Below, in pieces: positions 848 through 60,617 of a stretch of 64,000 nt of DNA. The notes below the pieces were generated by a model. That model was not told where the DNA came from. It was given only the letters and a program-made list of their open reading frames with translations, and searched no databases. Both the position numbers and the translations under genes were made by a program. Every line of letters begins with the position of its first letter. Position 1 is the first letter of the stretch. The stretch comes from Bacteroidaceae bacterium (GTDB taxonomy: Bacteria > Bacteroidota > Bacteroidia > Bacteroidales > Bacteroidaceae). Where the stretch lies: the NCBI GenBank assembly GCA_017548075.1, contig JAFYNL010000027.1, positions 40,719-104,718 of the forward strand, given 5' to 3'.

Positions 848-990
848 CTGCAGTGAAGTTTGTAAAGATCACGTGTGAAGTTTGCAAAGTTCACACGTGA
901 AGATGAGCAACTTCACGTGTGTTGTTTGAGAACTTAACGTGCTTAGTTGGCAAACTTAACGTGTCTAGTTGACCAACTAGACGTGCCTAA
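848..990. repeat. 22-bp phased intergenic array A (six cores)
   Basis: Hexamer cores ACGTGT, ACACGT, ACGTGT, ACGTGC, ACGTGT, ACGTGC begin at 871, 893, 915, 937, 959 and 981, exactly 22 bp apart. CTGCAG at 848 lies at the left boundary. Half-way between cores are TTGCAA-like centres (TTTGCAAA, TTGGCAAA). This is the longest and most diverged of the seven arrays in the window. It occupies the gap between two convergent genes and ends just before a terminator hairpin. Confidence 0.9.
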
Positions 991-995
991 TAAGA

Positions 996-1031
996 AAAGC
1001 CCCCTGCAAGCGTTTGCTGCAAGGGGCTTTC
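996..1031 (-). terminator. Rho-independent terminator of the ppiD-like gene
   Basis: An inverted repeat with arms AAAGCCCC and GGGGCTTT, extended by a TGCA pairing after one mismatch, lies 20 bp past the stop of the minus-strand gene. Read on the minus strand the stem runs straight into TTTTCTTA, giving a U-rich tail. Confidence 0.85.
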
Positions 1032-7318: not shown

Positions 7319-8920
7319 TCAATAGTTAAGTGGAGCTTGCGGACAAGCGTTCGGAGCACGGATGCGAAGTGTCTGTGCAATGGTGGGTGCAACATGGTCG
7401 ATGCTGACGGGAATGCGAACCTTTTCCGGCACGATGTTTGCCCCAAAGAAGAAGAGCGGGAAGCTCAAATAGGATTCGCGGCTGAGCGTTTGTTCGTGTG
7501 TGTTCTCGTTTTTGAGAAGCCAGCCGGGAGAAACTTGTATTAGAATGTCGCCCGAACATTTCGGGTTGTAAGCGTTGCGAAGTTTGCTGATGCCTGTCGT
7601 TCCTGCACCAAGAGCGAGACGCTGACTTGTGTAAACGTCCTTGACGCCGCTCAGTTGGATGAGGAAAGCGCTGCAGCGGTCGAGCACCTCTGTCAGGTTG
7701 AGATTGCGGTTCTCAATGAGTTTGAGGTTGAGATAGAGCTGATTGTCGATGGCCGTCTCAACATAATCGCCTGGGCCATAAACGGCGATGAGATACATAT
7801 TGAGCAGAGCCTGAGCCTTCGTGATGGAGAAAACACCTGTGGGAATGCGGTATTTGCTCAGGTCCATCAGCTCTTCGGAATCGAAATACCCCGTGCTGGT
7901 AACGATGAACAAAGTCTTGTCCATGCCAACCTTTTCCTCAACGAAGTCGAAGAGTTCCTCCAGTTGGCGGTCGAGCCGAGCATAGGTGTCCTGCATTTCC
8001 ATGCCGTACTTTGCAGCCGTCTGATGGTCGTAGGCTCCGGCATAGTAGGTGAGCGTCAGCAGGTCGGTTACTGCGTCTGTGCCAAGTCCTGCCTTTTCGA
8101 TGGTTTGCTTGGCAAAGAGGTTGATTTCGTCGTTGACGCAAGCCGTTGCCTTAAACTCGCGGAACTTGCGGCCACTCTTGAACTTGTGGCTGAAAGGCTT
8201 GGCTTTTGCTCCGTCCGAAACAAAGTAGTGGAAGTTCGCTACCTGCTCGTTGAGAGGCTCCCAACGGATATCGTCGATGCGGTCTTCAAGGGAAGACTGC
8301 CTGTCGTATTCTGTTGCCCAATCGGGATAGTCGTCGTAGTAACAAGTCGTTGCCCACTTGCCCGTCCAGTCGTCGAGCCAGAAAGCGCCGTTCCCGGCGT
8401 GTCCTGCACCCAGAATGGCAGATTCGCGAGAAGGAGCGATGGAGTAGATGAGGCTCTTTCCCTCGGAAGACACCTTCAACTCATCTCCGATAGTAGAGAC
8501 GGCAAGATGCTTGGGCGAGGACTTCTCGTCGGTAAGGATGCCAGGATAGGTCTCGTCGTCCACACAGAAGACAGGCAAGAGCGTCTGTCGGTCGAGCCAA
8601 TGTGTGCCTACAATCCCGTTAGCATAAGGACTTGTGCCCGTCATCAGGCAAGCCATTGCAGAGGCTTGGTCGGGCGAACTGAACGGATATTCTGCTTGAG
8701 AGTAGAAGCGTCCCTGTTCCTTGAGCCTTTGGAATCCTCCTTGTCCATAAAGCGGAGTGAAGGCGTCCATATAGTCGCTCCTCAACTGGTCGATGACAAT
8801 GTTTACAACCAGCGATGGAACTTGTGGCGCATCCTGTGCCTGTGCACTAATGGACAACAGACAACAGACGGCGGACAACGGACCGCAGACGACAGACAAT
8901 AGACGCTCTTTATTTTTCAC
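7319..8920 (-). CDS. Secreted alkaline-phosphatase-fold protein, probably inactive
   Basis: A 533-residue protein with signal peptide (cleavage likely after SISAQA) that follows the whole length of PafA-type alkaline phosphatases (VVNIVIDQLRSDYM, TSPYANGIVG, SGDILIQVSPGW). The first metal aspartate (IDQ) is kept. The other catalytic positions are not: the nucleophile segment TVTAxGH reads FSSPDQ, the DYVGH segment reads YYAGAYDH, the ADHG segment reads TSTG, and the DSHIPLLF segment reads YLSFPLFF. The comparison is with the family from memory. It is therefore probably a non-catalytic relative. The GTG start overlaps the stop of the DUF4105 gene by 11 bp, implying coupled translation. The signal-peptide codons consist largely of a CAACAGACAAC-type repeat. 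Confidence 0.85.
   Translation of the reverse strand: MKNKERLLSVVCGPLSAVCCLLSISAQAQDAPQVPSLVVNIVIDQLRSDYMDAFTPLYGQGGFQRLKEQGRFYSQAEYPFSSPDQASAMACLMTGTSPYANGIVGTHWLDRQTLLPVFCVDDETYPGILTDEKSSPKHLAVSTIGDELKVSSEGKSLIYSIAPSRESAILGAGHAGNGAFWLDDWTGKWATTCYYDDYPDWATEYDRQSSLEDRIDDIRWEPLNEQVANFHYFVSDGAKAKPFSHKFKSGRKFREFKATACVNDEINLFAKQTIEKAGLGTDAVTDLLTLTYYAGAYDHQTAAKYGMEMQDTYARLDRQLEELFDFVEEKVGMDKTLFIVTSTGYFDSEELMDLSKYRIPTGVFSITKAQALLNMYLIAVYGPGDYVETAIDNQLYLNLKLIENRNLNLTEVLDRCSAFLIQLSGVKDVYTSQRLALGAGTTGISKLRNAYNPKCSGDILIQVSPGWLLKNENTHEQTLSRESYLSFPLFFFGANIVPEKVRIPVSIDHVAPTIAQTLRIRAPNACPQAPLNY
8851..8904. repeat. CAACAGACAAC-type simple repeat inside a signal-peptide coding region
   Basis: Imperfect copies of ACAACAGAC and GGACAACGGAC run for about 54 bp. 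On the minus strand they encode the hydrophobic core of the signal peptide (SVVCGPLSAVCCLLS). A similar run lies at 13706-13739 inside another secreted protein. Confidence 0.75.
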
Positions 8921-10092: not shown

Positions 10093-10187
10093 CGAATAAG
10101 TGAGCAAATAGCCAAATTTATTTGTGTATTTCCGAGCAAAAATGTGGCTCGACGAGGTCAATATCCTCAGTGTCGTGGGCAAACTTA

Positions 10188-10259
10188 ACGTGTTACGATG
10201 GCGAATGTAACGTGTTGCGTTTGCATTTTTAACGTGTGACGTGGACCAATTTCATGTGC
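10188..10259. repeat. 22-bp phased intergenic array B
   Basis: Cores ACGTGT at 10188, 10210 and 10232 and ATGTGC at 10254, each 22 bp apart, with GGCAAA, TTTGCA and similar centres between. The recognisable sequence extends to about 10170 on the left and 10270 on the right. The array lies between two divergently transcribed genes, outside both promoters. No ACT-type end motif was identified here. Confidence 0.85.
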
Positions 10260-10319
10260 CATGAGTGCAAAAATCGCCCATTTCATCGAGAATTTTGACA
10301 TTTCTAAGGCAGTATTAGA

Positions 10320-19204: not shown

Positions 19205-20407
19205 ATGGAAAAGAAGAAAGTAGTTGTTGCCTTTAGCGGAGGCTTGGATACCAGTTACACAGTCATGTATCTGGCTAAGGAAAAGGGTTATGAGGTGTAT
19301 GCCGCTTGCGCAAATACTGGGGGCTTCAGCGAGGAACAACTCAAGACAAACGAGGAGAACGCCTACAAGTTGGGAGCAAAAGCTTACGTTACCCTCGATG
19401 TAACTCAGGAATATTACGAGAAGTCTCTGAAATATATGGTGTTTGGAAATGTGCTTCGCAACAACTGTTATCCTATTTCAGTAAGTAGCGAACGCATCTT
19501 CCAGGCTTTGGCTATTGCCCGATATGCAAAGGAAATAGGTGCCTCGGCTATTGCTCATGGCTCTACTGGAGCAGGAAACGACCAGATTCGCTTCGATATG
19601 ACTTTCCTCGTTATGTGTCCTGGAGTTGAGATTATCACTTTGACTCGCGACGGAAATCTCTCGCGTCAAGAGGAAGTAGACTACCTCAACAAGAACGGTT
19701 ACTTTGCCGATTTCACCAAACTGAAATACAGTTATAATGTAGGTCTTTGGGGGACAAGCATTTGCGGTGGCGAGATCCTCGACTCGAAACAGGGTTTGCC
19801 CGAAAGTGCTTACCTGAAGCATCCTACCGAAGAAGGCCCGGAGTTGCTCAAGATAGGCTTCGAGAAGGGAGAGATTTACTCTGTGAATGGAGAGCATTTC
19901 GACGATAAGATCAAGGCGATACAAAAGGTTGAGGAAATTGGTGCTCGCTATGGAATTGGTAGAGATTGCCATGTTGGCGATACGATTATCGGCATTAAAG
20001 GTCGTGTAGGCTTTGAGGCTGCGGCACCTATGCTCATCATTGGAGCCCATCGTTACCTCGAGAAGTTTACCCTCTCAAAGTGGCAACAGTACTGGAAAGA
20101 GCAGGTTGCAAACTGGTACGGAATGTTCCTCCACGAAAGCCAATACCTGGAGCCTGTAATGCCGGATATAGAGGCGATGCTGACAAGCAGTCAGAGGAAT
20201 GTGACGGGCGAAGTGACGCTCGAACTCCGTCCTCTTTGCTTCCAAACCGTCGGAGTTGACAGTCCTAACGATCTCGTCAAGAATAAACTTGGCGAATATG
20301 GTGAGACGGCAAAGGCTTGGACGAGCGAAGATGCCAAAGGTTTCATCAAGGTTACGTCCACAGCTTTGCGAGCATATTATCTTGCTCATCCCGACGAAAG
20401 AAAGTAA
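19205..20407 (+). CDS. argG: Argininosuccinate synthase
   Basis: Joins citrulline and aspartate with ATP to form argininosuccinate. The 400-residue protein begins with the PP-loop motif AFSGGLDTSY (residues 9-18) and carries the citrulline/aspartate site blocks (AHGSTGAGNDQIRF, YSYNVGLWGTSICGGE). Length is normal. It begins 14 bp after the GNAT gene and is followed by a 156-bp gap holding 22-bp array C before argC. Confidence 0.98.
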   Translation: MEKKKVVVAFSGGLDTSYTVMYLAKEKGYEVYAACANTGGFSEEQLKTNEENAYKLGAKAYVTLDVTQEYYEKSLKYMVFGNVLRNNCYPISVSSERIFQALAIARYAKEIGASAIAHGSTGAGNDQIRFDMTFLVMCPGVEIITLTRDGNLSRQEEVDYLNKNGYFADFTKLKYSYNVGLWGTSICGGEILDSKQGLPESAYLKHPTEEGPELLKIGFEKGEIYSVNGEHFDDKIKAIQKVEEIGARYGIGRDCHVGDTIIGIKGRVGFEAAAPMLIIGAHRYLEKFTLSKWQQYWKEQVANWYGMFLHESQYLEPVMPDIEAMLTSSQRNVTGEVTLELRPLCFQTVGVDSPNDLVKNKLGEYGETAKAWTSEDAKGFIKVTSTALRAYYLAHPDERK

Positions 20408-20429: not shown

Positions 20430-20525
20430 CTGCAGTTAAGTTGGTCAACGTAACACGTTAACTTTGCAAACGTAACACGTTAAGTTTGCGATTTAACCAC
20501 GTTAACTTTGGCAACTTCACTAAGG
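20430..20525. repeat. 22-bp phased array C between argG and argC
   Basis: CTGCAG at 20430, then ACACGT at 20453 and 20475, CCACGT at 20497, and ACTAAG at 20519, all on a 22-bp phase from 20453. Centres are TTGGTCAA, TTTGCAAA and TTTGCGA. This is the only array between co-directional genes and it lies inside the arginine operon. Confidence 0.9.
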
Positions 20526-20563
20526 TAGTTTGAAAGAAGAGCGAGTTACGACAGAAAAGTACT

Positions 20564-21532
20564 ATGATTAAGATAGGAATATTAGGTGCAGCCGGCTATA
20601 CTGGCGGCGAGTTGATAAGGGTTTTGCTCTGTCATCCGGAGGCGAAGATTGTGTTTGCCAATAGCGAGAGCAACGCAGGAAATCCTGTCTGCGAAGTGCA
20701 TGAAGGACTAATCGGCGAGACTGACCTTTGCTTCACAGACAAGATGCCTTTCGACGAAGTGGATGTCGTCTTCCTTTGTTTCGGACATGGGAAGAGCGAA
20801 CAATTCCTTTCGGAACACAAGATTCCTGCAAGCGTGAAGATTATCGACCTTGCTCAGGACTTCCGCATAGCCGCAGATAATCACGACTTCATCTATGGTC
20901 TTCCAGAGACTCATCGCGAGCAAATCCGTTCGGCTCAGCACCTTGCAAACCCGGGTTGCTTCGCTACTTGCATTCAGTTGGCTATGCTTCCTGCCTTGAA
21001 GGCCGGCATCATTAGCGGAGACATCCATGTGAACGGTATTACAGGAAGTACGGGAGCGGGGCAGAAACCTGCGTCAACCACCCATTTTTCTTGGCGAAAC
21101 GATAATATTTCGGTCTATAAAACCTTCACTCATCAGCACCTTCTCGAGATAAATCAAACTGTTCAGGAACTTTGTCCGGGCTATGATGGAAGGGTGCTTT
21201 TCGTTCCTCAAAGAGGGTGTTTCACTCGCGGAATCTTCGTTACGGCTTATGCAAAGTGCAATCTTCCCCTCGAGGAAGTGCAGAAGATTTATGCCGACTA
21301 CTATAAGGACGCGGCTTTCACGCACTTTGTCATCAAGAGTCCCGATATGAAGCAGGTCGTCAACACAAACAAAGCAGTTGTTTATGTGGAGAAATTCGAA
21401 GACCAGTTGCTCATGATTTCCTGTATCGACAACCTCCTCAAAGGAGCCGTCGGTCAGGCAGTTCAGAATATGAATCTCATGTTTGGCCTCGATGAAAAGG
21501 CTGGGTTGAACTTAAAAGCAAGCGCATTCTAA
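20564..21532 (+). CDS. argC: N-acyl-gamma-glutamyl-phosphate reductase
   Basis: Reduces the acylglutamyl phosphate to the semialdehyde with NADPH. The 322-residue protein has the nucleotide-binding start ILGAAGYTGGELIRVL and the catalytic cysteine block NPGCFATCIQLAMLPAL near residue 130. Length is typical of the shorter ArgC class. The stop is directly followed by the argD ATG (TAAATG), so the two are translationally linked. Given the pathway variant here, the natural substrate may be the succinyl derivative. Confidence 0.95.
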   Translation: MIKIGILGAAGYTGGELIRVLLCHPEAKIVFANSESNAGNPVCEVHEGLIGETDLCFTDKMPFDEVDVVFLCFGHGKSEQFLSEHKIPASVKIIDLAQDFRIAADNHDFIYGLPETHREQIRSAQHLANPGCFATCIQLAMLPALKAGIISGDIHVNGITGSTGAGQKPASTTHFSWRNDNISVYKTFTHQHLLEINQTVQELCPGYDGRVLFVPQRGCFTRGIFVTAYAKCNLPLEEVQKIYADYYKDAAFTHFVIKSPDMKQVVNTNKAVVYVEKFEDQLLMISCIDNLLKGAVGQAVQNMNLMFGLDEKAGLNLKASAF

Positions 21533-27728: not shown

Positions 27729-27739
27729 AAAAGAACCCT

Positions 27740-27834
27740 AGTTACGTTGCCAAACTTAACACGTTAAAAAGGCAAACATAACACGTTAACTTTGGCAACT
27801 TAACACGTTAACTTTGCCATCGTAACTGCAGTAG
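27740..27834. repeat. 22-bp phased array D
   Basis: ACACGT at 27760, 27782 and 27804 and ACTGCAG at 27826, all on a 22-bp phase. Centres are TTGCCAAA, GGCAAA and TTGGCAA. The left end begins CTAGTTACG, the right end TAACTGCAGTAG, giving partly inverted ends. It occupies the gap between two convergent genes. Confidence 0.92.
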
Positions 27835-27846
27835 TTTTCCGACTTA

Positions 27847-37101: not shown

Positions 37102-37631
37102 CAAAAAGAGAACTGCGTCAGCAAATAAGGGCGCAGAAGAGGAAATGGACTTCTCAATTGCCTGAGTTGTCCGATCAGATTTGCAGTAAAGTGCTTGCTC
37201 TTGCCTCTTGGCAGGAAGCGGGCACTCTGCTTATGTATTACCCTTTGCCTGATGAAGTCGATGTGCGTCCCTTGATAAAGGAGGCTTTCGAGAGTGGCAA
37301 ACGCGTTCTTCTGCCTGTTGTAAAGGGCGAAGAACTCGAGCTGCATCTTTATGAAGGTGAAGGCTCTTTGAAGGAAGGAGCATTCGGCATTATGGAGCCA
37401 ACTGGAAAGAAGTTCATAGAGAAGGACTATTCCAGCATCCAACTTGCCCTCATTCCTGGAATGGCGTTCGATAGAGTGGGGCATCGTTTGGGAAGAGGAA
37501 AAGGTTATTACGACCGTCTATTGCCTAAACTCACAAACACTCGACTACAAGGCATTTGCTTCCCTTTCCAACTTCTTAACGAGGTTCCTGCAGAGTCTCA
37601 CGACATCTCAGTTTGGGAAGTCATTTGCTAA
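37098..37631 (+). CDS. 5-formyltetrahydrofolate cyclo-ligase
   Basis: Recycles 5-formyl-THF to 5,10-methenyl-THF with ATP. The 177-residue protein has the N-terminal KRELRQQIRAQKRKW helix, LMYYPLPDEVDVRPLI, and the ATP site block AFDRVGHRLGRGKGYYDRLLP near residue 130. It overlaps the oxidoreductase gene by four bases and ends before 22-bp array E. Confidence 0.93.
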   Translation: MTKRELRQQIRAQKRKWTSQLPELSDQICSKVLALASWQEAGTLLMYYPLPDEVDVRPLIKEAFESGKRVLLPVVKGEELELHLYEGEGSLKEGAFGIMEPTGKKFIEKDYSSIQLALIPGMAFDRVGHRLGRGKGYYDRLLPKLTNTRLQGICFPFQLLNEVPAESHDISVWEVIC

Positions 37632-37644
37632 GAATCAAAACATA

Positions 37645-37716
37645 ACGTGTTATGTTGCCAATCATAACACGTTACGATTGCAAAGTTAACGTGTTACGTT
37701 TGACAACTTAACTGGC
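37645..37716. repeat. 22-bp phased array E
   Basis: ACGTGT at 37645, ACACGT at 37667, ACGTGT at 37689 and ACTGGC at 37711, exactly 22 bp apart, with TTGCCAA, TTGCAAA and TTTGACAA centres. Neighbouring cores are in opposite orientation here, making inverted repeats. The array lies between two convergent genes. Confidence 0.9.
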
Positions 37717-37742
37717 GTCGATGAGATGTGTCTTTCAGGCTA

Positions 37743-43525: not shown

Positions 43526-43620
43526 CTGCAGTTATGATTGAAAAGTTAACGTGTTATGATGGCAAACTTAACCTGTTACGTTGGCAAAGTTAACGTGTTA
43601 AGTTGAGCAACTTCACTGGC
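43526..43620. repeat. 22-bp phased array F
   Basis: CTGCAG at 43526, ACGTGT at 43549, ACCTGT at 43571, ACGTGT at 43593 and ACTGGC at 43615. Phase is exactly 22 bp from 43549. Centres are GGCAAA, TTGGCAAA and TTGAGCAA. It lies between two divergent promoters. Confidence 0.92.
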
Positions 43621-43636
43621 GATGTTTTTAATCTCT

Positions 43637-49387: not shown

Positions 49388-49481
49388 GCACGTCTAGTTC
49401 CCAAACTTAACGTGTTATGTTTGCAAAGTTAACGTGTTACGTTGACCAACTTAACGTGTGTCGTTTGATTCGTAACTAGAG
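49388..49481. repeat. 22-bp phased array G
   Basis: ACGTGT at 49410, 49432 and 49454 and ACTAGA at 49476, each 22 bp apart; a further CACGTC lies near 49389. Centres are CCCAAA, TTTGCAAA and TTGACCAA. The ends read CTAGTT and AACTAG, forming inverted ends. It fills the gap between two convergent genes. Confidence 0.92.
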
Positions 49482-54778: not shown

Positions 54779-56259
54779 TTTTTAGCTGCCTTCTTTTTGG
54801 CGGGAGCCTTCTTTGCCGCAGGTTTCTTTGCGGGAGCTTTCTTAGGAGCAGGCTTTGCTTTTGGCTCTGCTTTCTTCTTTGCAGGAGCTTTCTTAGGAGC
54901 CGGCTTTTTCTTTGGCTCGGGCTTCGGCTCTTCCTTTGGTGCTTCCTCTTCTTCAGGGCTAAGTTTCTTGAGGCGGGCACGAAGACGACTTATCTCGTTG
55001 TCCTTCACGCTGAGTTCCTCGCCCATGTTTGCAATCTGCGTGTAGAGGCTGTTCAGCTCGTCGTTCTCCACGGAATCTGGGAACATATCCTTCACGCGTT
55101 TGAGGAAGTCGCCGAGGATGTTCATGTAGTTCGTGAACGCGTCATACTCGCTATCGTAGATGCCGCGATAGTTGCCCATGCCGTTGTTCTTGGTCGTCAT
55201 GAAGCGAAAGTTGTCGGTAGCCTGCAGACGGTCCCAATCCAACTGAATGCGGCGGTCACGGCAAGCGAGGATGCGGCCCACGGTATTCTCGTCATAAAGC
55301 TTGTTGAAAGCCTCGCGCTGCATGCCGTTTCCGAGCATACTGCTGGTGTCGCGCTCCTCGTCGTTCCAACTGACGGGATAAATGACTTCGAGCGGACTGA
55401 CGGGCTTGTTCTTTGCGAGCACTTCGGAAGGTGTAGCGAACTGAATTCCCATCTTTCCTGCGAGTTTTGGCAGAGCGCGGAAGAAGTCGAGGATGTGACT
55501 GCTGAGGGGCTGATAATAACCGAGAGCAGCGAGTTCCATCATAATGCCAACCACGTTTTCTCCTTCGGGAAGACCTGCAACCCAACTCAACCATTTATCG
55601 GCCATCAAAGGATATTCCGACCAAGATGCATCGTTGAAGCGAAGGCCGATATCGTCGCTGAGTTTGTAGTCGCGAAGGATAAGCGAGAGGCGAGAGTCTT
55701 GAGCGCAAGAGTAGATGTAGTGCGGACTCTTCCAGCCGAGGATGTGCTTTGCACCTTCCACCATCACGCCTTTGAAGCCCATATCTGCCACCATCGCTCC
55801 AATCTCGTCGTCGTAGATGAGCGAAGAGTTGCGGAAGACTTTCGGGTTCTGTCCGAAGAGTTGCTTGATTTTCTTTGCCTGACGCTTTGTCTCGGCTATG
55901 AAGTTATCGACGTTGCCGAGCGACGAGAGGCCGTGGCTGTAAGGTTCTGCAAGGAACTCCACACAACCCGTTGCAGCCAGACGTCCGAGCAGATCGAGCA
56001 TTTCAGGAGCATATTGTTCGATGAGTTCGAGCGAAACGCCACTAATGCTGAACGCCACCTTGAAAGCCTTTCCGTTCTCGGCAATCATGTCGAGCAACGT
56101 TTGCAGAGCCGGCTTGTAGCTCTTCTCGAAGATTTCGTTGATGACGCGTTCGTTCTCGTAGTCGTCGTAGTAATAGTGGTCGGTACCAATGTCGAAGAAA
56201 CGATAGCGCTTGAGATGAATAGGTTGGTGTATCTCGAAGTATAAGCAAATAGTTTTCAT
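54775..56259 (-). CDS. GH57 family alpha-glucan hydrolase with basic tail
   Basis: A 494-residue cytoplasmic protein. GH57 motifs: YFEIHQPIHLKRYR at the start (HQPxH), then FSISGVSLELI, CVEFLAEPYSHGLSSL (GH57 region with Glu), and the later YPLMADKWLSWVAG. A coiled helix (about 385-430) leads to a 55-residue tail of Pro/Ala/Lys repeats (KKAPAKK, KPAPKKAPAK) like histone H1. The enzyme probably acts on glycogen as an amylase or transferase. It follows the GT4 synthase after 30 bp and overlaps the kinase-AraC gene by four bases. Confidence 0.9.
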   Translation of the reverse strand: MKTICLYFEIHQPIHLKRYRFFDIGTDHYYYDDYENERVINEIFEKSYKPALQTLLDMIAENGKAFKVAFSISGVSLELIEQYAPEMLDLLGRLAATGCVEFLAEPYSHGLSSLGNVDNFIAETKRQAKKIKQLFGQNPKVFRNSSLIYDDEIGAMVADMGFKGVMVEGAKHILGWKSPHYIYSCAQDSRLSLILRDYKLSDDIGLRFNDASWSEYPLMADKWLSWVAGLPEGENVVGIMMELAALGYYQPLSSHILDFFRALPKLAGKMGIQFATPSEVLAKNKPVSPLEVIYPVSWNDEERDTSSMLGNGMQREAFNKLYDENTVGRILACRDRRIQLDWDRLQATDNFRFMTTKNNGMGNYRGIYDSEYDAFTNYMNILGDFLKRVKDMFPDSVENDELNSLYTQIANMGEELSVKDNEISRLRARLKKLSPEEEEAPKEEPKPEPKKKPAPKKAPAKKKAEPKAKPAPKKAPAKKPAAKKAPAKKKAAKK

Positions 56260-57599: not shown

Positions 57600-57683
57600 C
57601 AGAAAATGTGAAATTTAGAGAATTAGAAAATTAGAAACGTGGATTCTTCCTTTTCTTATTTTCTTCATTTCTTATTATCTTAT
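57600..57683. repeat. Copy 1 of a duplicated leader element (before the GT4 gene)
   Basis: The first 40 bases (57600-57639: CAGAAAATGTGAAATTTAGA onward) are identical to 59640-59679. A pyrimidine-rich half follows with TTTTCTTATTTTCTT-type text. It fills the whole gap between the debranching stop and the GT4 start, reading directly into the ATG on the minus strand. Confidence 0.85.
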
Positions 57684-59636
57684 TTATTCTTCGTTATACT
57701 TATCCAGCAGTTTCACGATTCGCATGATGCCAGAGACGTTCATGGCGAAGCTGATGGCGCCTCGTCCGTGGAAGGGCGGGTTGCCGTCGAACAGCTCGGG
57801 TATGGTGCCGATGCAATGGTAGAAGAGTTCCTCTTCGTAACCCACAAGCAGACGGTCCACATAACTCATCTTGCTAAATCTGTATATCTTCAGGCAAGCC
57901 TCCATGTAGAAAGCCGCGAGCCAAGGCCAAGCTGTGCCCTGATGATAGGCATAGTCGCGTTGAACTTGCGGACCCACATACATCGGGTTGTAGCCGTGAC
58001 TCTTCGGAGAGAGCGAACGCATTCCCTTCGGCGTGATGAGTTCCTTCGTGCAATAGTCGAGCACGCTCTTCTGCTGCACTCTGTCGAGCGGAGAGTAGTC
58101 CAGCGCCACGGCAAAGACCATATTCGGACGCACGTCGTAGTCGCGATAGCCGTCCACGCAATAGTCGCAAAGGTAGCCGTACTCGTTGTAGAACATCGGA
58201 GCGAAGTTCTTCTCGCAAAGCTTGGCTGCAGCCTCCAGTTGCTTGATGAACTTCTTGTCCTTCACAATGCGGCAGACCTCGGCGCTGAACATCAGAGCGT
58301 TATACCAAAGTGCATTGATCTCGACGATGAAGCCCGTTCTGGGAACGATAGGCCGTCCGCCTGCAGAACTGTTCATCCAGGTGACGGCTTTGTCTCTGCC
58401 TTCGCAGCTGACGAGCCCGTTCTTCTCCACGTGGAAGTTGGGGTGCCCTCCTGCTCTGAGCCATTCCATCATGTCCTGAAGGAGTTTGCCGTACTTCTCG
58501 ATGCATTTCTCCATGCTGACGAAGTTGGCGTATTGCTGGATGCACCAGACTGCCCAGAGCAAGACATCGGGATGCTCCATTTCGGTCACGCTGACGGAAA
58601 GTTTCTTCTGCCTGGGGTTCTCCATGAACTCGCGAATCGCCTTCTCCGCAGTCCTCATCACAGCCTCGAACTTCTCCACCTCGTTGTTGGTGAGCGTGAG
58701 TCCAGGCAACGAGACGAACATATCCCTTGCCCTGCACTTGAACCACGGATAGCCTGCCAGCACATAGTCCTCGTGTTCGCGATGGACGATGAACTGATGG
58801 GCGCTGTTCACGAGCGTATTGTAGAAGTTGTCGCGAGGCGTGCGGACACTTACCTCGAAGTCCGCCAACTCAGCCAGCGTGTCGGTATTTATCTCCTCCA
58901 AGCCTGCCGCAAAGACCACGCTCTCGCCCTTCTTGATGTTGAACTCGAAGTAGCCCGGCACATACAGGTCTTCCGTGCTTGCATAGCCGCGTTCCTGCTC
59001 CTTCGGATACTCTAAACCTCTGTACCAGTCGGGACGGAAGACGAACTCGTTCTCCTTGTTGATCTGCATGAAGAGCGTCGGGTAACCCCTGTACATGCAA
59101 GTCGAGATGCCGTTCTGCACCACATTGTAGTTGCGGTTCACCCCTGCGTTCTCGTGCGTGAACTCTCTTACACTACGGAAAGCCAGGAAGGGCTGCAAGC
59201 GGAGTGTCGTCTCGGAATGCGCATCCACAAGCGTGTAGCGGATGATGATGCGGTTCTCGAAGTGTTGGAACATCATTTCCCTCTTCAGGATGACGCCGCC
59301 CACGCGATAGACGGTTGTGGGCACTTGCAGCGAGTCGAACTCGCGGATGTATTTGTGGCCGCGAGGACTGAAGTTGTCGCCGTTGTATTTGTGGAGGCCG
59401 AGGTTGAACTCAGCTCCGTGCTGAATGACGGTTGCGTCGAGGCTCGAGAGCAGCACATGGTTCTCGTCGTCCAACTCGGGCACAGGCACAACCAAAAGTC
59501 CGTGGTACTTGCGCGTATTGCAATCCACCAGCGTCGTGCAGCTGTAGGCTCCCGAGCGGTTCGAGCGCAGCACCTCCTTAGGCAGCGACTCCCGCAGGTT
59601 TGTCATCAGCGTCTTATCGAAACGTAAATAACTCAT
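57684..59636 (-). CDS. Glycogen debranching enzyme (amylo-alpha-1,6-glucosidase type)
   Basis: A 650-residue cytoplasmic protein. An N-terminal bacterial GDE domain (about 15-225; SNRSGAYSCTTLVDCNTRKYHGLLV) is followed by an (alpha/alpha)6 barrel (about 275-640; GYPWFKCRARDMFVSLPG, VTWMNSSAGGRPIVPRTGFIVEINALWYNAL, QGTAWPWLAAFYMEA). The length and domain order fit bacterial GDE_C proteins. It is the first gene of the three-gene glycogen operon. The ATG lies three bases after a repeat-like leader. Confidence 0.93.
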   Translation of the reverse strand: MSYLRFDKTLMTNLRESLPKEVLRSNRSGAYSCTTLVDCNTRKYHGLLVVPVPELDDENHVLLSSLDATVIQHGAEFNLGLHKYNGDNFSPRGHKYIREFDSLQVPTTVYRVGGVILKREMMFQHFENRIIIRYTLVDAHSETTLRLQPFLAFRSVREFTHENAGVNRNYNVVQNGISTCMYRGYPTLFMQINKENEFVFRPDWYRGLEYPKEQERGYASTEDLYVPGYFEFNIKKGESVVFAAGLEEINTDTLAELADFEVSVRTPRDNFYNTLVNSAHQFIVHREHEDYVLAGYPWFKCRARDMFVSLPGLTLTNNEVEKFEAVMRTAEKAIREFMENPRQKKLSVSVTEMEHPDVLLWAVWCIQQYANFVSMEKCIEKYGKLLQDMMEWLRAGGHPNFHVEKNGLVSCEGRDKAVTWMNSSAGGRPIVPRTGFIVEINALWYNALMFSAEVCRIVKDKKFIKQLEAAAKLCEKNFAPMFYNEYGYLCDYCVDGYRDYDVRPNMVFAVALDYSPLDRVQQKSVLDYCTKELITPKGMRSLSPKSHGYNPMYVGPQVQRDYAYHQGTAWPWLAAFYMEACLKIYRFSKMSYVDRLLVGYEEELFYHCIGTIPELFDGNPPFHGRGAISFAMNVSGIMRIVKLLDKYNEE

Positions 59637-59639
59637 AAA

Positions 59640-59726
59640 CAGAAAATGTGAAATTTAGAGAATTAGAAAATTAGAAACGCAGAGCCTCTTTTTCTTATTT
59701 TCTTATTTTCTTGTTATCTTATTTTT
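59640..59726. repeat. Copy 2 of the duplicated leader element (before the debranching gene)
   Basis: The first 40 bases are identical to copy 1, then CTTATTTTCTTATTTTCTTG-type pyrimidine text. On the minus strand it reads into the debranching ATG. The rest of the gap to 59890 is AT-rich; no convincing gene or promoter was seen in it. Confidence 0.85.
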
Positions 59727-59892
59727 ATATGTTCTTGCTCGTAAAATTACAAAATTTTCGACATACATCGAAACATTTCTCTCACAATTTCCATAGGAAA
59801 AGACAAATTAAGGAGCAAAAGATGTTCTACAACACAAAAAACTTCCTCCAAAACCGAAGAAAACAGGGGTTAGCCTATCATTCTGTCAAAAC

Positions 59893-60586: not shown

Positions 60587-60617
60587 ATTCTTCACTCTTC
60601 ATTCTTCACTCTTCACT
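60587..60617. repeat. ATTCTTCACTCTTC tandem repeat before the muramidase-like start
   Basis: Two copies of a 15-bp unit fill the gap between the HU-like stop and the muramidase-like start. On the minus strand they read GTGAAGAGTGAAGAAT, a purine-rich leader right before the ATG. Confidence 0.8.

Follow-up and report, generated by a model that had tools for sequence, protein, structure and literature searches.

Intergenic arrays with an exact 22-bp inner phase in a Bacteroidaceae genome, and period-22 arrays in its relatives

The seven arrays of the window

The window analysed here is a stretch of 64,000 nucleotides from a Bacteroidaceae bacterium (GenBank assembly GCA_017548075.1, contig JAFYNL010000027.1, positions 40,719 to 104,718 of the forward strand). 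Its source genome is referred to as G000 and its open reading frames (ORFs) were called by a simple script. Seven of its intergenic gaps carry arrays of 22-bp repeats, A to G, built around the hexamers ACGTGT or ACACGT that are termed cores below (Table 1). An earlier note, made from the sequence alone, had described these arrays and all seven were located. Their gene context (four convergent gaps, two divergent gaps and the tandem gap between argG and argC) was the same on re-examination, with array A lying behind a Big_2-domain ORF and a SurA-like gene. Among the 25 cores that the note had given without reservation, 20 are exact ACGTGT or ACACGT hexamers once those of array D are moved 1 bp to the left, and five are near misses (ACGTGC at 937 and 981 in array A, ATGTGC at 10254 in B, CCACGT at 20497 in C and ACCTGT at 43571 in F). 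Six arrays were said to end in phase; the end motif of array G is 1 bp out, and the clear boundary of array A is the one at its 5' side.

Table 1. Positions of the arrays and of the genes on both sides of array C in the window.
Feature	Position	Strand	Description
Array A	849..1002	.	about 7 units of 22 bp; cores 871, 893, 915, 937, 959, 981; 5' boundary TGCAGT 849; convergent gap
Array B	10166..10275	.	boundary CTCAGT 10166; cores 10188, 10210, 10232; degenerate core 10254; divergent gap
argG (argininosuccinate synthase)	19205..20407	+	Pfam PF00764, PF20979; one side of array C
Array C	20431..20540	.	boundary TGCAGT 20431; cores 20453, 20475; degenerate core 20497; end ACTAAG 20519; inside the argG-argC operon (tandem)
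argC-type semialdehyde dehydrogenase	20564..21532	+	Pfam PF01118, PF22698; other side of array C
Array D	27737..27840	.	boundary CCTAGT 27737; cores 27759, 27781, 27803; end ACTGCA 27825; convergent gap nitroreductase-cutC
Array E	37623..37732	.	cores 37645, 37667, 37689; end ACTGGC 37711; convergent gap
Array F	43527..43636	.	boundary TGCAGT 43527; cores 43549, 43593; degenerate core 43571; end ACTGGC 43615; divergent gap upstream of an ECF sigma factor
Array G	49388..49480	.	GCACGT 49388; cores 49410, 49432, 49454; end ACTAGA 49475 (1 bp out of phase); convergent gap

Inner phase, half-sites and folding

The genome scan that the earlier note had proposed gave 316 matches to the pattern ACRYGT-N16-ACRYGT, in which two cores are 22 bp apart, versus one match to the reversed control pattern. 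In 458 kb (the window and 20 further stretches) 65 pairs of ACRYGT are 22 bp apart and 29 are 44 bp apart, and no other distance from 10 to 79 bp has more than one pair. A further 289 kb holds 31 pairs at 22 bp, 16 at 44 bp and at most two elsewhere. The total of 747 kb has 96 exact core pairs at 22 bp and none at 20, 21, 23 or 24 bp. When one mismatch is allowed in the second core the count at 22 bp rises to 113, with none at 21 or 23 bp and six each at 20 and 24 bp, which may be one core matched twice with a shift of 2 bp. The claim that the spacing is never off by one holds between inner cores and fails at the outer ends: the motif ACT is in phase at 65 of the 122 array ends in the 747 kb, at -1 in 14, at -3 in one and absent from 42, which makes 14 of the 80 recognised end motifs 1 bp short. 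The length had been read as two helix turns that present one face of the DNA. The 22 bp are kept, but they amount to 2.1 turns at 10.5 bp per turn, and by arithmetic each unit would be rotated by about 34 degrees relative to the one before, except where the helix is kept close to 11 bp per turn. This points to a row that winds slowly or to DNA that is slightly unwound.

Core calling defined 61 arrays in the 747 kb, 41 of them with three cores, i.e., four full units. At array ends the core is often replaced by a boundary motif (TGCAGT, CCCAGT, CCTAGT, mirrored as ACTGCA, ACTGGG and the like). Outside this motif one further unit is still in phase before conservation fades, information being lost within about 22 bp outside the boundary; the first 50 core chains have 100 ends, and the 62 that passed the motif and edge conditions were used here. 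Outer boundaries reading AAACRAC and then CCCAGT or TGCAGT are common to many copies, and the two ends are inverted copies of each other. The arrays are directional, all three cores having the same sense in 29 of the 37 arrays with three exact cores. Each unit in G000 is composed of two 11-bp half-sites that face each other in alternating orientation and follow a strict degenerate code. The triplet right of the core is CGT, TGT, AGT, CGA or TGA in 161 of 169 cases; ACT, AGT and AAA dominate on its left (126 of 169). Over both sides (338 half-sites) the first triplet position is never G and the third is never C or G. The distant genus member G008 (86% ArgG identity) has, by eye, its own similar half-site code. 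Dyad symmetry across arrays is a trend (mean 0.55 versus 0.47, with p<=0.05 in 31 of 88 arrays at 30 permutations each), and a universal dyad was dropped for this reason.

A plain tandem-repeat process, in which slippage or unequal exchange is driven towards 22-bp steps by the repair or recombination machinery of the lineage and the array has no function, would account for a period of 22 that is found with many unrelated sequences across the genus. It could also explain why, by eye, the units of an array are near-identical in some species. In G000 the hallmark of minisatellites or variable-number tandem repeats, units more alike within than between arrays, is absent: unit identity is 0.638 within arrays and 0.644 between them (32 arrays), which implies that the phase has outlived much substitution. 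Some arrays of G075 and G011 do, by eye, have units more alike within the array. The bases that never occur in half-sites point to selection, and the conserved position and even spacing described in the next section are not expected from slippage. Even with the faster evolution of arrays in one species pair on its side (see below), this process is an unlikely source of the arrays.

The assortment of half-sites bears on a second alternative, a non-autonomous mobile element with an inner minisatellite (a miniature inverted-repeat transposable element, MITE, of a BrickBuilt-like kind) that is spread by a transposase acting in trans. The standard deviation of pair identity between arrays is 0.0612 versus a mean of 0.0559 in block-permuted sets, a spread slightly above that of free assortment. 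Half-sites are thus distributed almost independently and not as whole copies, a pattern more like that of selected sites than of copied elements. The outer boundaries common to many copies, some array pairs that are up to 93% alike and the small excess of identity spread are features that a mobile element would leave. So is the distribution of the argG-argC array, which is found in a near clade while several distant members have almost no gap at this place. The element would however be expected to have a free copy number and a sharp end; the arrays have mostly three cores, their conservation fades outward in phase, and their positions are largely orthologous between species. A mobile element is a possible but doubtful origin.

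Folding was assessed because hairpins in RNA or in cruciform DNA offer another explanation, the arrays being hairpins of 3' untranslated regions, terminators or sites folded in the single strand. Arrays in tandem gaps are nearer to the 3' end of the upstream gene in 17 of 21 cases, some of six arrays compared with shuffled sequences fold better (z from -0.3 to -5.7), and one terminator-like stem lies inside array A (892-921). Native arrays, however, fold worse than half-array chimeras (mean -31.0 versus -34.3 kcal/mol for 32 arrays; difference 3.34, s.e. (standard error) 0.93). Mosaic sequences fold at -34.2 and -34.3 kcal/mol and column-by-column draws at -30.9 kcal/mol, practically the value of native arrays. 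Watson-Crick pairing about the centre of oriented arrays is 0.563, below the column expectation of 0.584, and at unit centres it is about as expected. The folding of the chimeras and the pairing at or below expectation indicate that strand pairing is not maintained. It seems to be avoided, an avoidance that may reflect the cost of long palindromes. Terminator-like sites are present in 6 of 30 convergent gaps with an array versus 13 of 35 without, and in 9 of 31 tandem gaps with an array versus 14 of 106 without; such stems not being typical of array gaps, an intrinsic terminator was rejected. Rfam at the gathering cut-off identified two tRNAs and no other structured RNA in the three stretches searched (the window, L071 and L077). 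The RNA hairpin reading is largely refuted for the source species, and hairpins of either kind are highly improbable.

The same data concern repetitive extragenic palindromic (REP) sequences and bacterial interspersed mosaic elements (BIMEs), spread by REP-associated tyrosine transposases (RAYT) and used as sites for gyrase or Pol I. Their layout, in the account of PMC2817692, is alike: they are intergenic, lie at gene ends and have alternating half-sites and a species-specific sequence. Palindrome pairing through complementary change, kept in the REPs that this source treats, is not kept in the arrays. The Y1_Tnp profile of RAYT proteins had no match in G000 (88% complete) nor in five other array-rich genomes, G005, G008, G011, G019 and G023 (metagenome-assembled genomes (MAGs), 62-89% complete); G012 has two. 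An origin as REP or BIME elements is very unlikely. Gyrase wrapping was also considered as the source of the phase; the 22-bp alternation of two dyad kinds differs from the G/C periodicity reported around gyrase sites (PMC12393610).

Placement in the source genome and in related species

Among the gaps of at least 100 bp in the first 458 kb of G000, arrays occupy 18 of 30 convergent, 22 of 60 tandem and 5 of 22 divergent ones. The 50 core chains are distributed as 47 in gaps, one inside an ORF, probably by chance, and two at stretch edges. The 106 arrays called at lag 22 in eight genomes comprise 38 in convergent, 47 in tandem and 10 in divergent gaps, 10 in ORFs called by the script and one not classed. 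Their spacing was compared with random draws from the same gaps in 11 contigs, those of the relatives being partly orthologous and the four from G000 not. The coefficient of variation (CV) is 0.21-0.61 versus 0.70-0.87 in the draws, with p<=0.011 in 7 of the 11 contigs and 0.085-0.33 in the remaining ones. Arrays are on average 7.5-8.8 kb apart in the contigs of G000 and 7.2-13.0 kb apart in those of relatives. The four G000 contigs have a CV of 0.27, 0.48, 0.33 and 0.53 versus 0.71-0.85 in random draws (p 0.006, 0.005, 0.006 and 0.17; when arrays are called by exact cores, p 0.0065, 0.068, 0.02 and 0.17).

The gap orthologous to that of array C was anchored on argG, which is present in 56 of 61 genomes, and was examined in 30 of them. 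It holds a 22-bp array in G034, G005, G075, G026 and G035, and weakly in G023 and G011. Unit sequences mostly differ; those of G005 are close to G000, and G075 and G026 have one family in common. G012 has no array there, in more distant members the gap is short or contains other DNA, and three distant genomes reach lag-22 scores of 18, 9 and 19 (cut-off 27 of 44). The nitroreductase-cutC gap of array D has 22-bp arrays in seven relatives, among which five unit families can be told apart by eye. When four of the window's array gaps are taken together, the lag-22 cut-off is reached in 18 of 20 near-relative gaps, six of which exceed 600 bp and hold other DNA too, versus none of 31 control gaps of at least 60 bp; over all comparisons of array-less gaps, short ones included, it is reached in 10 of 205.

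A comparison of orthologous gaps, also proposed at the outset, was run on gaps of up to 450 bp over all ordered pairs of nine genomes, pairs that are not independent. When the first genome has an array the second also has one in 92 of 140 cases, and when the first has none in 39 of 1708; for tandem gaps alone the figures are 45 of 72 and 28 of 1390. This comparison and the genome scan support the earlier proposal that the phase is what is kept. So do the relatives whose arrays at an orthologous place have unrelated units and yet a period of 22, and the lack of a rival lag from 16 to 40 in array-bearing contigs. The compared species average 72-93% protein identity, at which neutral DNA between most pairs is expected to be saturated anyway; the idea of a very fast replacement of unit families was dropped once these values were known.

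In the scan of lags 16-40 over contigs of G000 and eight near relatives, lag 22 stands out and other lags give at most one cluster per contig set. Twenty further stretches from 18 genus members have 16 clusters at lag 22, 13 at lag 44, seven at lag 21, of which three are in stretches with a 7-bp repeat ladder, and none at lag 23. Counting G000, a lag-22 cluster passes the main cut-off in 18 of the 28 genus members sampled, with many unrelated unit sequences. Other families of the order contributed 20 stretches (257 kb in total, several of which are very short), in which lag 22 occurs once, lag 23 twice and no other lag more than once. Most named records that carry the G000-type pattern are Bacteroidales MAGs from rumen or gut (RUG606, RUG12391, RGIG10220 and others; at least 48 stretches). 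Viral contigs had no exact match to one strict pattern, which is weak evidence against a phage origin.

Composite arrays change unit family without loss of phase, by eye. An ACGTG-type unit gives way to a GGCCGCCAAAAATATTCA-type unit at G005:C69 near 12141 (L117) and G035:C100 near 72158 (L132), and at G075:C4 near 108916 (L122) a ACATGTATCTATAATTATACAT block is in phase within a ACAGGCTGAGTTTCAAAACTCG array, with the switch at unit centres. G011 (L135/L136/L137) and G023 (L140/L141/L142) have a second period-22 family, centred on GGTTAACC, alongside the ACGTGT family. The G000-type pattern is also present in JADINH010000051.1, titled Candidatus Avisuccinivibrio, which may be a binning error.

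Repeats of other kinds were noted. Lags 21, 28, 35 and 42 occur together in G031 (L175) and G036 (L177) and identify 7-bp repeats, a distinct repeat class in the genus. Two period-23 arrays with a TCACAAGTTTGTCAGTTTTTA-like unit are found near 8222 and 9622 of G054:C1 (L194), from another family of the order. Within the window the same 8-bp repeats, of AGAAAATT and TTTTCTTA type, lie at 57601-57685 and 59641-59736 on both sides of a 650-aa ORF (57684-59636), an arrangement that resembles flanking repeats. A 30-bp repeat pair is found within an ORF region at 54800-54861 and a 7-bp TCTTCAC repeat at 60587-60617.

A putative binding protein and comparison with known systems

The inner phase of the arrays is exact, their position and phase are often kept between species and their spacing is even in most contigs. 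Units drift within arrays while the inner phase persists, so that sequence changes and phase stays. The reading that we favour, with about even confidence, is that the arrays are phase-dependent cooperative docking sites on double-stranded DNA for a putative DNA-binding protein. Such a protein would bind the array cooperatively as dimers or as a short filament, the alternating 11-bp half-sites placing dyads at 11-bp and full sites at 22-bp intervals. With neighbouring protein units in contact, any inner indel of a length other than a multiple of 22 bp would break the row and be lost, and the bases of the array could drift together with the binding protein. The location of arrays in convergent gaps or behind gene ends, about 8 kb apart in G000, makes a structural use likely, in which the chromosome would be pinned, bridged or insulated at the places where transcripts end. 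We infer the protein, its cooperativity and its role in structuring the chromosome. A ParB paralogue as the binder is not supported, since a single ParB_N gene was found in G000 as far as the completeness of the MAG allows.

Several results weigh against docking sites for one such protein. Array ends are in part out of phase, a 22-bp unit is not a whole number of 10.5-bp turns, and a clear dyad is found in just the 31 arrays mentioned above. Half-sites do not assort quite freely: whole arrays resemble each other slightly more than expected, and a spread as large as the one observed arises in just 4 of 200 permuted sets. Evenness of spacing is weak in G034 (p 0.27), G011 (p 0.33), contig C3 of G000 (p 0.17) and G026 (p 0.085). 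Several unrelated unit families coexist in one genome (five kinds by eye in seven G034 clusters), which one sequence-specific protein would not read. In G011 and G023, whose coding DNA is 90.7% identical, array identity is 0.78-0.82 versus 0.84 in other intergenic DNA, the faster change that suits a plain tandem-repeat process. The alignment gaps in their arrays (22, 14+30 and 15+8 bases, and also pieces of 1-4 bases) are not all unit multiples; at the orthologous array with the pieces 14+30 the unit number differs, as might be expected of a mobile element. Gap pieces are irregular and alignments poor in more distant pairs (G075-G026). There is no lag-22 cluster at the main cut-off in G001, G004, G006, G007, G008, G009, G020, G022, G030 and G031 (7-53 kb each). 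Of these, G020 has one cluster at a looser cut-off and G008 has 319 pattern matches elsewhere. The ParB_N profile matched a single gene in G000, exactly one match being the rule in 39 of 41 genomes, and yielded no array-binding protein.

Bacterial site families are as a rule identified by their sequence. What much of this genus conserves is a length and not a sequence, in many cases at orthologous positions and with fairly regular distances between arrays. No report of these arrays, or of a sequence-free 22-bp rule kept across a genus, was found in the open-access papers searched. If a protein filament occupies the arrays, it would form a chromosome-organising layer that is invisible to sequence searches and would provide hundreds of natural variants for studying how the specificity of a protein and its sites change jointly. 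The arrays also offer a simple in vivo test of phase-dependent cooperativity. More tentatively, a chromosome-wide system of phase-locked protein rows may partition the chromosomes, at gene ends, into segments of some 8 kb, with the sites and the 22-bp ruler inherited over long times and the DNA code rewritten from species to species; arrays would perhaps be spelled from a small alphabet of 11-bp half-sites.

Repeats of a similar layout are known from Porphyromonas gingivalis, a member of the same bacterial order as the source genome. Its BrickBuilt elements have a 23-nt unit, 19 copies of 1 to 22.8 repeats, a leader and a tail with inverted ends, and 0-6% indels inside the arrays, as outlined in PMC4596501. 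Like them, the arrays are intergenic tandem repeats without spacers that expand and contract by whole units at scattered loci, those of BrickBuilt being, in the same outline, mostly common to strains and having homologues in P. gulae (PMC4596501). Unlike them, the arrays have a period of 22, and no leader or tail was found outside, although their boundaries are inverted copies of each other. They recur about once per 8-12 kb, mostly with three cores, an exact inner phase and a half-site code, and they occupy positions common to species although the unit sequences are unrelated. REP/BIME-2 elements of enterobacteria and their relatives are also intergenic, regularly spaced, of alternating orientation and species-specific, and a role in chromosome organisation has been proposed for BIMEs (PMC2817692). 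As that source describes them, BIMEs are associated with RAYT genes and preserve palindrome pairing; for the arrays neither of these was found. The resemblance to BrickBuilt and BIMEs is one of layout, the defining features that were tested being mostly absent.

Chromosomal parS, Noc sites and matS are palindromic and scattered over the chromosome as single sites of one conserved sequence. The arrays are likewise dispersed, and some of their unit families resemble CACGTG-centred sites, but they form rows of about four or more units in exact phase whose sequence differs between species. A ParB-family paralogue, as would be needed for sites of the parS or Noc type, was not found in G000 beside its one ParB_N match. 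Phased rows of sites for an oligomerising protein are known from the 22-bp iterons of R6K and the 11-bp parC repeats, one per replicon; the pattern described here has hundreds of matches per chromosome, and the 10 window ORFs checked included no replication or partition gene. A plasmid search with one window ORF gave no lead. A code that is rewritten between species, while its sites and its ruler are inherited, can be likened to eukaryotic satellite DNA and its partner proteins.
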